Below, piece by piece: positions 5,771 to 10,317 of a DNA stretch of 64,000 bases. Made by a program: the position numbers and the translations under genes. How positions within the stretch are numbered: the first letter of the stretch is position 1; each line of letters opens with the position of its first letter. This DNA is from Candidatus Jettenia sp. AMX2 (GTDB lineage: Bacteria; Planctomycetota; Brocadiia; Brocadiales; Brocadiaceae): contig CP129469.1 in assembly GCA_030583665.1 (NCBI GenBank), positions 62,001-126,000 on the forward strand, given 5' to 3'. Under the pieces are notes generated by a model. It was not told the DNA's origin and did not search any database. It worked only from the letters and a program-made list of their open reading frames with translations.

Positions 5771-6379
5771 ATGGAAAAGGATATCAAAAATGACAAAATA
5801 ATTATTGATACGAGTATTTTTACGAATCCCGATGTTTATCAAACGTTTGGTGTTAATCCAACGGAAGCGTTACGTACTTTCTTAAAGATTATTGGTGAAT
5901 TAGACGGGCCTGCCTTTTATATGCCCCCAACAATTTATCAGGAATTGCTTAATTTTGTAGCAATCGAAGACATTCCTATTGACTGGCAGATTCGTATCAT
6001 CCAAAAACCGCCTAAGCGGTATGAGCTGACAGTGCCAGCCTTTTTGTTATATGAGCTTATCGAGGATGTAAGACTAAGAATCGATAAAGGTTTGCGGGTG
6101 GCGGAGGAGGCGGTAAGAGAAATGTCTCTTGCTACAGAACCGGATACGATTGCCAATTTGCGAAAAAAGTACCGTGCTGCACTTCGCGAAGGTATTATTG
6201 ACAGTAAGGAAGATGTTGACTTAATACTTCTGGCAAAGGAAATGGATGGCATCGTAATGACGGCCGATTTAGGTATCGTTAAATGGGCCGATAAGCTGGG
6301 TATCAGATATATTGATCCCCGTAAATTGAGGGATATCCTGAATAAGTTACTGTCGTCAGCAGATAAAAATAGCGGTTAA
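5771..6379 (+). CDS. RNA ligase partner protein, PIN-like (MJ_0950 family)
   Basis: Protein of 202 residues. [18 protein letters not shown] at the N-terminus carries the first PIN-domain Asp; the C-terminal part has [27 protein letters not shown], with the acidic residues and TxD typical of PIN ribonuclease folds. This matches the family annotated as RNA ligase partner, which co-occurs almost perfectly in genomes with Pab1020-type RNA ligases. It lies tail-to-tail with such a ligase 52 bases away. A role in RNA end processing together with the ligase is inferred from co-occurrence; the biochemistry is not established to my knowledge. Confidence 0.85.
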
Positions 6380-6431
6380 AATCAGTGTTTAACACCATAT
6401 ATTGTTGGAGTGACGTAATTATTTTCGAAAA

Positions 6432-7574
6432 TTAATCGGCATGCGATGTGCCGTCCAGATGCTTTTGGAGGATATCATAGGAAGCATAGGATTTCTTAAT
6501 AAAGGTAATATGCCAGTAATCATCCCTTTTTTCTTTCGACAGGACTTCAAATTTTATCTTACATTTCTGTAAATGGTCTATCATGTGTTGTATATTTTTT
6601 TCTTCGTGGAAAAGGAGTGAAAATTGTTCACCAATTATTTTGTTTTTGGCCGCTTTCGCAACACTTTCATAGACAGGCTGTAGCAATACTTCGCCAAGTT
6701 GAGTAAAAACATCTGCCGATAAAGGATAAGCATGTTCAAGGATGTACATTGCAGCACGAATGATCCGGTGAGTGAAAAACTCTGGTCGCATTTCCGCCAT
6801 TAAATGTGCAGTAACACGAATATCACGGAAACAGGACTTTAATGTTACATACTTTAGTGTTCTTTCTGCGAGGTCTGTCGGCTTCATGACAATCCCCTCG
6901 CATCCTGTCTCATTTAATTCTTTAACAAGCTCTTTCAGTTTCGTGATATCAGAAGGGGAAAACCTGCCAAACCTCCTTGTGGTCGGTATGTCGTAGAAAT
7001 CAAAAATCTTATACCGTTCTTCTACTGGAAGACTCTCGGGCTTATTCATCGACATTAAATCGAATGCAAAAAAACCAACGTCTTCCTTGATATATGGGGG
7101 ATGCTCAATGTTGTAAGGATTATCAGGTCCTGCAAACTCGCCGCAGACAATCAAATGGGGATTATCATCGAATATCCTTTTTGTATCCAGGAAATCTGCA
7201 ATCCGGTCTGTTGAGAACGGGCATACATAGGCATTTCGTGAGAAGGCTAGTATACGTCCCTGGATACATGCAATTCTTGTATTATAACCATCAATCTTCT
7301 CTTCAACATAAAATGGTTTTGTATAGGCTTTACCTACACCATTTTCAAGGTGTAATATGCGGGCAATCCGTGGGAAATCGAAGAGAATTCCATCCTGCGT
7401 TATGATTGACCCCTTTTCCATGGGTCCCACTTTTTTTGTTACCCGATAGAAGTGTATACCATCAAATTCTTCCGGGATAACATCATGTTTTTCAATAGAT
7501 TCCTGCCATAAGGACTCTGATAAACCAACATGTTTAACCACTTCAAACAATTTATAATTGTTCATAACTCTCAT
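6432..7574 (-). CDS. ATP-dependent RNA ligase, Pab1020/Rnl3 type
   Basis: Protein of 380 residues of the archaeal-type RNA ligase family. Nucleotidyltransferase motif I is EEKIDGYNTR with the adenylated Lys at residue 93, followed by a phenylalanine-rich motif III (FFAFDLMS), motif IV (EGIVMKP) and motif V (YVTLKSC). The roughly 120-residue C-terminal region is the family-specific dimerisation/OB-like part. The enzyme seals or circularises RNA ends through enzyme-AMP and AMP-RNA intermediates. It is transcribed toward the partner gene, not with it. Initiation could be at the listed ATG or at the fourth codon, also ATG; upstream purines (GGAATGAGAG) fit the second better. Confidence 0.9.
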   Translation of the reverse strand: MRVMNNYKLFEVVKHVGLSESLWQESIEKHDVIPEEFDGIHFYRVTKKVGPMEKGSIITQDGILFDFPRIARILHLENGVGKAYTKPFYVEEKIDGYNTRIACIQGRILAFSRNAYVCPFSTDRIADFLDTKRIFDDNPHLIVCGEFAGPDNPYNIEHPPYIKEDVGFFAFDLMSMNKPESLPVEERYKIFDFYDIPTTRRFGRFSPSDITKLKELVKELNETGCEGIVMKPTDLAERTLKYVTLKSCFRDIRVTAHLMAEMRPEFFTHRIIRAAMYILEHAYPLSADVFTQLGEVLLQPVYESVAKAAKNKIIGEQFSLLFHEEKNIQHMIDHLQKCKIKFEVLSKEKRDDYWHITFIKKSYASYDILQKHLDGTSHAD

Positions 7575-7817: not shown

Positions 7818-7869
7818 ACAATGCCTTAATTTCTGAATTGAGAAGAATGCCTTTTAAAGGATATTATTG

Positions 7870-9339
7870 ATGTATATTATTTTTGGTTCTAATGATATTG
7901 GAAGTACACTAGCAATAAATTTAAAAAAATCTGACGAGGAAGTACTTGTCATTGACAATGATGAAAATGCATTGGCGGGTTTGAAGGATTATAATCTTCA
8001 AATCCTCGCAACGGATATTAATGTATTGAACTTTGAATCATTGCAAGGGAAAGATGTCATTGCTTTTGTCCTTTCACAGAAAAATCATAAGGACAATGTA
8101 TTTTTGGCAAAACAGATAAAAGGTTTGTTTCCTGACAAATTTATCTTGTCAAAGGCAATCGATGAAAAAGAGGTTTCTGAATTATTAGAAAATGGGGTGG
8201 ATCGTACGGTTCAGCCTGTAAAAATTATAACAAATGCAATTTTAAATGAACTCGAAACAGCGAAGCTTAAACAGGCTGTTTTTCGCCTGGTAAGCGTTCT
8301 GAAAGCAGCCGTTAATAAAGGAATTGCTATCTTTTTGCAGGATAATCCGGATCCAGATGCTATAGCCAGCGGACTTGCACTAAAACGTATTGCCGATAAA
8401 TACGATATTAAATGTAAAATCTATTATGGCGGTAATATTGGTCATCAACAAAACAGAACCCTCGTAAATCTTTTAGAAACTGATCTCATTCGATTACAAA
8501 CTTCCGATGAATCATTAGATGTTATCAATGCAGTTGATAAAGTTGCATTAATAGAGGCTTCTATTCCTTCTAAAAATAATATTTTACCCGCGAATATAGT
8601 TCCTAATATAATCATTGATCACCATCAGGTAGATTTAAAACTTGTAAAAGGTGAGTTTGTTGAAATTTTACCTAAAATGGGTGCAAATTCCACCATTATG
8701 ACAAGGTATTTGAGGCAACTCGATATTGTCCCTGACCCTCCTCTTGCAACGGCACTTCGTTATGGTATAAGGACCGATACCAATGGTTTTACCAGAAATA
8801 CAACGACAGAAGACCTTGATGCCGCAGCCTACCTCTCATCGTTGGTAGATGTGGGTCTTTTAAATCAGATTGAAAATCCACCTATGAGCGCGGAAACGAT
8901 TGATATTATAGGGAGGGCTATAAGAAACAGAGAAGTAAAAGGCTCATATCTGATTTCATTTGTAGAATTTATAACCGATCGTGATGCCTTGCCGCAAGCA
9001 GCTGAATTGCTATTGCAGATGGAAGGAATTACGACAGTGCTTATTTTTGGAATCGACAAAGACAAGGTACAATTGTCAGCCAGAAGTACGGATTCGAGGG
9101 TCAATCTTGCATCATTATTACAAAAAGCGTTTGGATTTATGAATGCTGGTGGTCATGCGACTATGGCGGCTGGCACGATTGATTTGGGTATTTTTGGGGA
9201 CGTAACTGATAAGAAATCGCTACTCAGGATTACTTTTGATGCTATACGTAAAAAATTTTTCTCAGCAGTAGGAATAGATATAGAGAAAAAAGACATGCCT
9301 GATGATTTGGAATTAATGATTAATAGCAGCAGAGATTAA
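7870..9339 (+). CDS. RCK/TrkA-N plus DHH-DHHA1 phosphoesterase fusion protein
   Basis: Protein of 489 residues. Residues 1-120 form a TrkA-N (RCK) Rossmann domain: YIIFGSNDIGSTLA is the nucleotide loop, and VIDND is the acidic end of the second strand. Residues about 140-330 form a DHH phosphoesterase domain, with DNPDPDAIASGLA (motif I/II aspartates) and IIIDHHQ (the DHH motif). The C-terminal DHHA1 part has NAGGHATMAAGTI. The DHH part resembles NrnA/GdpP-type enzymes that hydrolyse nanoRNA or cyclic dinucleotides. The RCK part suggests ligand or NAD sensing. This architecture is best known from archaea. A TTG codon precedes the ATG directly; ATG is preferred. Confidence 0.85.
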   Translation: MYIIFGSNDIGSTLAINLKKSDEEVLVIDNDENALAGLKDYNLQILATDINVLNFESLQGKDVIAFVLSQKNHKDNVFLAKQIKGLFPDKFILSKAIDEKEVSELLENGVDRTVQPVKIITNAILNELETAKLKQAVFRLVSVLKAAVNKGIAIFLQDNPDPDAIASGLALKRIADKYDIKCKIYYGGNIGHQQNRTLVNLLETDLIRLQTSDESLDVINAVDKVALIEASIPSKNNILPANIVPNIIIDHHQVDLKLVKGEFVEILPKMGANSTIMTRYLRQLDIVPDPPLATALRYGIRTDTNGFTRNTTTEDLDAAAYLSSLVDVGLLNQIENPPMSAETIDIIGRAIRNREVKGSYLISFVEFITDRDALPQAAELLLQMEGITTVLIFGIDKDKVQLSARSTDSRVNLASLLQKAFGFMNAGGHATMAAGTIDLGIFGDVTDKKSLLRITFDAIRKKFFSAVGIDIEKKDMPDDLELMINSSRD

Positions 9340-9381
9340 CGTGATTGTTGTTTTATAGATGACAGAGATAAGGAAAGTATT

Positions 9382-10245
9382 ATGGGCAAAGGATTTTTGT
9401 GTTTATGTTTGACAGGTCTTTTAATCTTCTTGAATTCTTGCGCTACTAATCAAGTGGAGAAGATAGATCGCGACTTGAGAGAGGAAAAGGTTGTGACACC
9501 CACAGAGCCTGTGGAGATTGTTCCCGATGTGATAGATATAACACCAGAAGAGATATTGGTTGAAGAACCGGAGCCGGAAGAAGTACCGGAGGTAACCCCT
9601 GCAGCACCTGAGGAAATAATAGTGGATATACTCACCGAAGATCCCGATCCTGAAGAAATACCAAAAGAGGTATTTCTTGAAAAAACAGAAATAGAGGAAG
9701 TTCCTGAGACTGCTGTACCTGTAAAGACTGAAGAAATACCGGAGGATATGCCTGCAGAAGAGCCAGAGATTAAAGAAGTATCTGAAACAGCTATGCCTGC
9801 AGAGCCTGAAAAAGAGGTAAGTGAAGAACTTCTGTCAGGATTACGATGGTGTGACAGATGCAATAAAAATGTTGGAGAAGGGCATATTTGTGGCCTTACC
9901 ACATATTGTGAGCAATGTTTAGAGGAGGTCGGTTCCGGGCATATCTGTGATTTCACTTTTTTCTGCCATGATTGTAAAAAAGAGGCGGGGGATGGCCATA
10001 TTTGCGGCTTGACAACATTTTGTTTTAAGTGTGAAGAGGATGTCGGGCAAAGCCATATTTGTGGCGTTACGTATTTTTGCTATGACTGCGAAAAAGAAGT
10101 AGGTGATGAGCATATTTGTGGTATTACATATTTTTGTGCTGTATGCCATGCTGAAGTAGGGGAAAAACATGAGTGCGGAAAAAGTTTTTTTTGCTTTGAT
10201 TGTGAGGTAGAAGTTCCTAAAACCCATCAGCACGGAAAGTTATAG
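9382..10245 (+). CDS. Lipoprotein with seven 19-residue Cys/His repeats
   Basis: Protein of 287 residues. A signal peptide ends in a lipobox LNSC with the lipidated Cys at residue 20. Residues 36-150 are a Pro/Glu-rich acidic stalk. From residue 157 there are seven exact-period repeats: Cys at 157, 176, 195, 214, 233, 252 and 271, each with the pattern C-x2-C-x7-H-x-C-x5. The last unit has His instead of the final Cys. Each unit supplies four ligands, so seven structural or metal-loading zinc sites are likely. Unit six contains a chance CxxCH, but the other units do not, so haem attachment is not indicated. I do not recognise the family. It follows the RCK-DHH gene by 42 bases and is probably co-transcribed. 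Confidence 0.7.
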   Translation: MGKGFLCLCLTGLLIFLNSCATNQVEKIDRDLREEKVVTPTEPVEIVPDVIDITPEEILVEEPEPEEVPEVTPAAPEEIIVDILTEDPDPEEIPKEVFLEKTEIEEVPETAVPVKTEEIPEDMPAEEPEIKEVSETAMPAEPEKEVSEELLSGLRWCDRCNKNVGEGHICGLTTYCEQCLEEVGSGHICDFTFFCHDCKKEAGDGHICGLTTFCFKCEEDVGQSHICGVTYFCYDCEKEVGDEHICGITYFCAVCHAEVGEKHECGKSFFCFDCEVEVPKTHQHGKL

Positions 10246-10282: not shown

Positions 10283-10317
10283 GGAAGAGGTATGATTCGA
10301 TACGACATACCTCTTCC
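10283..10317. terminator. Hairpin between convergent genes
   Basis: A perfect 12-bp stem (GGAAGAGGTATG with CATACCTCTTCC) around an 11-base loop, in the 102-base gap between the Cys/His lipoprotein gene and the convergent FxLYD gene. No strong T tract follows on either side, so it could act as a bidirectional 3' end without being a classical intrinsic terminator. Confidence 0.55.

Follow-up and report, generated by a model that had tools for sequence, protein, structure and literature searches.

The 64,000-nucleotide stretch of the Candidatus Jettenia sp. AMX2 genome analysed here (GenBank assembly GCA_030583665.1, contig CP129469.1, positions 62,001 to 126,000 of the forward strand; hereafter the window) carries at 9382..10245 (+; stop codon included) a gene for a lipoprotein of 287 amino acids, the C-terminal part of which is composed of seven tandem units rich in cysteine and histidine. 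Judged from its sequence and those of its relatives, this protein is the representative of a new, uncatalogued family of zinc-repeat lipoproteins, and its units are likely to bind metal, as suggested by the exchange of ligands between relatives and by a structural model.

The gene is present in the list of open reading frames (ORFs), has homologues of the same layout, and is preceded by a probable ribosome-binding site read in the sequence (aaggaa, 9370..9375 (+)), with AAGGAG at the equivalent place in most relatives. Its product starts with a type II signal peptide (9382..9441 (+)) ending in the lipobox L-N-S-C (residues 17–20), of which Cys20 is the predicted lipidated residue, and at the sequence level export is shown by this motif. 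A Glu/Pro-rich stalk of 136 residues follows (9442..9849 (+); 37 Glu and 19 Pro), and the first repeat cysteine is residue 157. The array, read from the sequence, consists of unit 1 (CDRCNKNVGEGHIC, 9850..9906), unit 2 (CEQCLEEVGSGHIC, 9907..9963), unit 3 (CHDCKKEAGDGHIC, 9964..10020), unit 4 (CFKCEEDVGQSHIC, 10021..10077), unit 5 (CYDCEKEVGDEHIC, 10078..10134), unit 6 (CAVCHAEVGEKHEC, 10135..10191) and unit 7 (CFDCEVEVPKTHQH, 10192..10242), all on the plus strand. Units 1–6 have the form C-x2-C-x7-H-x-C and unit 7 the form C-x2-C-x7-H-x-H, the spacing from unit to unit is exactly 19 residues in all six cases, and the 131 residues of the array contain 20 Cys and 10 His. The gene coordinates, the exact period, the number of units and the lipid anchor on a Pro/Glu stalk had all been described correctly in a first-pass annotation made from the sequence. 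Two antisense ORFs (9450-9956 (-) and 9919-10233 (-)) lying over the gene are probably by-products of its codon usage.

Chance does not account for the tandem pattern. When the host genome (a single 3.46-Mb contig) was scanned with a DNA pattern for C-x2-C-x7-H-x-C-x5-C-x2-C, six matches were found, all six of them inside the lipoprotein gene, and a reversed control pattern gave at most one match per genome, with 13 of 392 genomes having a match (counted from the listing). Moreover, when the first 129 array codons of the window were compared with those of Ca. Loosdrechtia aerotolerans (L044), 17, 18 and 61 differences were found at codon positions 1, 2 and 3, respectively, and the array codons of loci L002 and L010 showed 7, 8 and 59. 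This accumulation of differences at third positions indicates strong selection on the protein.

The alignment of relatives from the window's own family, Brocadiaceae (f1), comprises 31 sequences; L049, which lies at a contig end, and the fusion copy L042/L056 were left out. All 28 predicted ligands are invariant across these rows, including the H-x-H of the last unit (31/31), so that the terminal histidine pointed out in the first-pass annotation proved to be a conserved rule. The array has seven units in 27 rows and eight in the other four, and its 19-residue period is constant in every Brocadiaceae array read. A lipobox of the form L-[SNVCTA]-S-C is present in 30 of the 31 rows, the N terminus of the remaining one being off the contig. 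The stalk ranges from 96 to 267 residues in relatives with a measured N-terminal lipobox (including L049, with 114), while the array stays constant; in L046 and L050 the stalk itself is built of PEAPEVP/PEIVVPEAPKMP-like repeats, variable in number.

The units within an array are not equivalent. With units numbered from the C terminus, the identity of non-ligand residues between genomes was 76% for same-numbered units versus 39% for different units, and in 5640 of 6510 comparisons no other unit matched as well as the same-numbered one (1 in 7 expected by chance). Unit 5 is the best conserved (0.94), followed by unit 3 (0.90), and the others range between 0.66 and 0.75.

A search of other genomes for the repeat, as proposed in the first-pass annotation, found it well beyond the window. 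Among 392 genomes sampled across the phylum, 34 matched at E 0.001, namely all 24 sampled Brocadiaceae and 10 others, which span seven families (f8, f27, f30, f40, f78, f82 and f95) and hold 11 loci with C-x2-C ... H-x-C/H arrays. A lipobox was recognized by eye in all 10 of these loci in which the N terminus is present. The fourth ligand of the unit is Cys in 190 and His in 31 of the 221 units of Brocadiaceae, the His being in the last unit; in eight distant loci (L164, L165 and L166 were outside this count and inside the spacing count below) it is Cys in 31, His in 17 and another residue in three of 51 units, one of the three being a misparse of H-H-H. Similarly, in one unit of family f82, read by eye, three genomes have C-x2-H where another has C-x2-C. 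Ligand positions are thus conserved and exchange at them is mostly between Cys and His, the pattern of zinc-type ligands. This exchange at fixed places, together with the odd number of cysteines (three) per unit, points to zinc sites rather than disulfides.

Spacing in the distant loci was counted with regular expressions, which may pair half-sites of different units. The loop between C-x2-C and H-x-C/H most often has seven residues (45 of 63 cases; otherwise 5 to 18), whereas the linker to the next C-x2-C is five residues long in 52 of 54. Because the loop within the unit varies and the linker is near-fixed, the sequences give the impression of discrete modules strung together by linkers of constant length. 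Nearly all arrays read open with C-x2-C and close with H-x-H or H-x-C, and therefore no half-site would be orphaned if each unit formed its own site.

A confident model was obtained with AlphaFold2 from the 31-row alignment (mean pLDDT 92.3, pTM 0.73; the fifth of five models was poor, at 62.0), with two short strands per unit, recurring at the unit period, and no helix. The metal binding implied by the first-pass annotation is strengthened by this hairpin-per-unit model and by the ligand-type exchange of Cys and His, and may be regarded as likely.

The protein was not assigned to any known family, in agreement with the first-pass annotation. No Pfam model exceeded its cut-off for the window protein (the best, Zn_ribbon_19, reached 11–12.5 bits versus 30.8, with E 0.17-0.45), nor did any NCBIfam model, sequence searches of the PDB gave nothing significant (best Gin, E 0.033), and fold searches of the PDB and of a viral fold library (best E 0.0015, with a TM-score of 0.16) were likewise without an accepted match. 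No description of the family was recognized in the open-licence literature, as judged mostly from titles and the starts of abstracts, supplementary tables not being covered. Zn_ribbon_6 exceeded its cut-off near the C terminus of the distant relative L084 (32.6 versus 25 bits) and fell just under it in L083, and the match in L084 supports the zinc reading. By their titles, the weak Foldseek matches are mostly zinc domains. Heme binding of the c-type was considered for unit 6, which contains CAVCH (10135-10149), and rejected, as the other 30 rows have no His after the second Cys. The motif is a chance occurrence in a cytochrome-rich organism; CxxCH is also seen in units of some f82 relatives.

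The best explanation of the whole, which we would place midway between likely and unlikely, is a lipid-anchored structural zinc rod with specific surfaces, carried on a stalk. In the exported protein, a flexible Glu/Pro stalk would end in a linear array of seven (in some genera eight) small zinc modules, joined by linkers of five residues (typically G-[LIV]-T-x-[FY]). Every module would comprise a β-hairpin with C-x2-C and a following loop with H-x-C (H-x-H in the last one), and would most likely coordinate a single zinc ion through its own ligands. The role of the zinc would most likely be structural: it would make the chain a short rod, stable and acidic, the constant non-ligand surfaces of which, most marked in modules 3 and 5, would be offered to a putative partner in the cell envelope, and the stalk would hold the rod off the membrane. 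The layout of the sequence, its conservation, its distribution and the upstream neighbour are observed; the identity of the metal as zinc, a stoichiometry of one ion for each module, the shape of a rod and the binding of a partner are what we infer. Several observations weigh against this explanation: (i) the constant linker would also fit sites common to neighbouring units, (ii) the partner is putative, (iii) structure prediction of the distant f82 relatives was poor and unusable (pLDDT 55.8), (iv) Foldseek found no match in the PDB at E 0.001 or better and VIA-align 2, comparing 141 chains, none with a Z of at least 2, and (v) the gene for a TrkA_N-DHH enzyme that adjoins the lipoprotein gene in Brocadiaceae is spread more widely than the latter, being present in 55 of the 62 genomes of the order, and in 11 of 11 such loci inspected outside the family no lipoprotein gene follows it.

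The rival that survives best, although it is rather unlikely, is a metal buffer or store of the envelope, analogous to a lipid-anchored metallothionein, the seven sites of which would exchange zinc (or Cu(I) or Cd) with the medium or pass it to exported enzymes. The 20 Cys and 10 His within 131 residues, the seven to eight sites per chain and the extracytoplasmic position would all suit such a role. Its units, however, would be expected to be interchangeable and variable in number, and neither was found within Brocadiaceae: position-specific non-ligand residues are kept across genera and the number of units is near-fixed, unlike under selection for capacity only, although the families of the phylum do differ in it. 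Furthermore, none of the neighbours read beside the lipoprotein gene was recognized as a metal transporter or metal regulator. Since each unit remains recognizable as itself from genus to genus, an individuality which a mere store would not need, the sequences argue for a specific scaffold rather than a metal store with interchangeable units.

A protein that builds or links the wall, with a role like that of the YTV proteins, which are reported to be cysteine-rich wall and envelope proteins of planctomycetes (PMC8567305), and with some cysteines in intermolecular disulfides, is distinctly unlikely. The lipid anchor and the long stalk would suit an envelope spacer, but no YTV domain appears among the listed Pfam matches, which extend to E 10 (weak matches are discarded by HMMER's filters), and a ligand-type pattern with exchange of Cys and His is not predicted by disulfides.

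Within the order, a single-sequence search found the lipoprotein gene in 31 of 62 genomes, every one of them from Brocadiaceae (31 of the 33 of the family); the named loci include Ca. Brocadia, Jettenia and Loosdrechtia (23 loci). The two genomes missed are G018, in which the contig stops 224 bases past the upstream gene and the start of the lipoprotein is visible, and G027, which is 58% complete. The gene is absent from all 29 non-Brocadiaceae genomes of the order, where a profile of the 31 sequences gave nothing even at E 1. Hydrazine synthase alpha was found in 40 of the 62 genomes, and the 21 of these that lie outside Brocadiaceae are without the lipoprotein, which is therefore not a signature gene of anammox and stands outside its core machinery. 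Anammox physiology involves NO and hydrazine, and an array of many zinc-thiolate-like sites could in such an organism act as a thiol-based sensor or scavenger (of oxygen, NO or hydrazine) that releases zinc upon oxidation, but this is highly improbable given the absence from those 21 genomes and the presence in other families of the phylum, whose anammox gene content was not tested.

The relatives outside Brocadiaceae have gene neighbours other than TrkA_N-DHH (by eye), and, as they belong to seven other families, the lipoprotein family is wider than Brocadiaceae and patchy within the planctomycetes. The DNA pattern matched 18 genomes outside Brocadiaceae, nine single matches not being counted as relatives. 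On reading, the matches in G062, G094, G187, G215, G251, G316 and G346 were true relatives, and those in G281 and G332 were rejected as an unrelated zinc-ribbon-like sequence shared by the two. Viral origin was also rejected: a two-unit DNA pattern occurred in nine viral contigs, of which six had reading frames bearing units with the period, all of low complexity or short and judged unrelated by eye, and three had no such frames. No relatives were found on plasmids.

The gene directly upstream in the window (7867..9339 (+)) encodes a TrkA_N-DHH-DHHA1 protein, recognized with Pfam (the DHH part being just below the cut-off), and ends 42 bases before the ATG of the lipoprotein gene. Of 24 long loci, 22 have the same gene immediately before that of the lipoprotein, with gaps of 33–63 bases in the 20 loci measured; co-transcription is likely in view of this adjacency and these short gaps, which makes it a probable operon partner. 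Although the two genes adjoin throughout the family, a functional link to the enzyme is not supported, since the enzyme is more widespread and non-Brocadiaceae relatives have other neighbours, and no divergent lipoprotein was found hidden behind the enzyme gene in the 11 loci inspected in other families. Downstream of the lipoprotein gene, a 12-bp perfect inverted repeat (GGAAGAGGTATG / CATACCTCTTCC, 10283..10317, by eye), located between convergent genes, is a possible terminator. Further upstream, genes for a PIN-like protein and an RNA-ligase-like protein (5771-7574; named by eye) are kept in many long loci. Among the distant relatives, also by eye, those in L106 and L107 (families f78 and f95) lie directly 3' of a phosphoglucomutase/phosphomannomutase-like gene, and a PilT-like ATPase and a ThiS/ubiquitin-like protein are encoded near those in L108 and L113 (family f82). 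The metagenome-assembled genome GWA2_39_15 contains an in-frame fusion of six units to the end of a long protein (L042 / L056 1536-3287) that resembles HEAT repeats and an Ig-like domain (by eye), as well as two further copies, each 3' of a TrkA_N-DHH gene.

The lipoprotein, which nearly every genome of the principal wastewater anammox family has and the other families of that order lack, is an unstudied candidate for envelope biology, and a concrete one in cells the compartment structure of which is poorly explained. It is possible, though we hold this tentatively, that it exemplifies planctomycete-wide extracytoplasmic 'zinc rods', i.e. lipid-anchored arrays of CCHC/CCHH sites formed within single units and joined by a constant linker, which would have become fixed in Brocadiaceae as a core component of the envelope and would serve as a specific docking surface for a partner in the envelope or the anammoxosome. 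The shortness of the protein suits direct study of metal content and metal-dependent folding.

Compared with known systems, the array appears from its sequence to be a set of tandem zinc modules whose location is out of the ordinary: such modules are best known inside cells, and an exported, lipid-anchored array of seven invariant sites is unusual. With zinc knuckles and ribbons (Zn_ribbon_19, PF14369; Zn_ribbon_6, PF07191) it shares C-x2-C hairpins and a second half-site of two ligands, but differs from them in its seven exact tandem CCHC units, its export and its lipid anchor. Tandem C2H2 fingers of the TFIIIA type have a constant five-residue linker, and the array resembles them in combining a constant linker between units with a variable loop within them; its units, however, are CCHC, 19 residues long, helix-less in the model and predicted to lie outside the cytoplasm, with no nucleic acid implied. 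Zinc domains of the RING/CHY type (Pirh2, viral CHY proteins), which have tandem zinc sites, are among the weak structure matches, with TM-scores of at most 0.24 by query length among the matches listed, no significant E-value and no sequence relation. Bacterial metallothioneins are small proteins with many Cys/His ligands in a cluster, and the likeness to them lies in the number of such ligands on a small protein, whereas the lipoprotein has regular, apparently folded repeats, a lipid anchor and individually conserved units. The YTV proteins, which are likewise reported to be cysteine-rich envelope proteins of the same phylum and differ in that the lipoprotein has no match to the YTV model, are the nearest known idea among planctomycetes.
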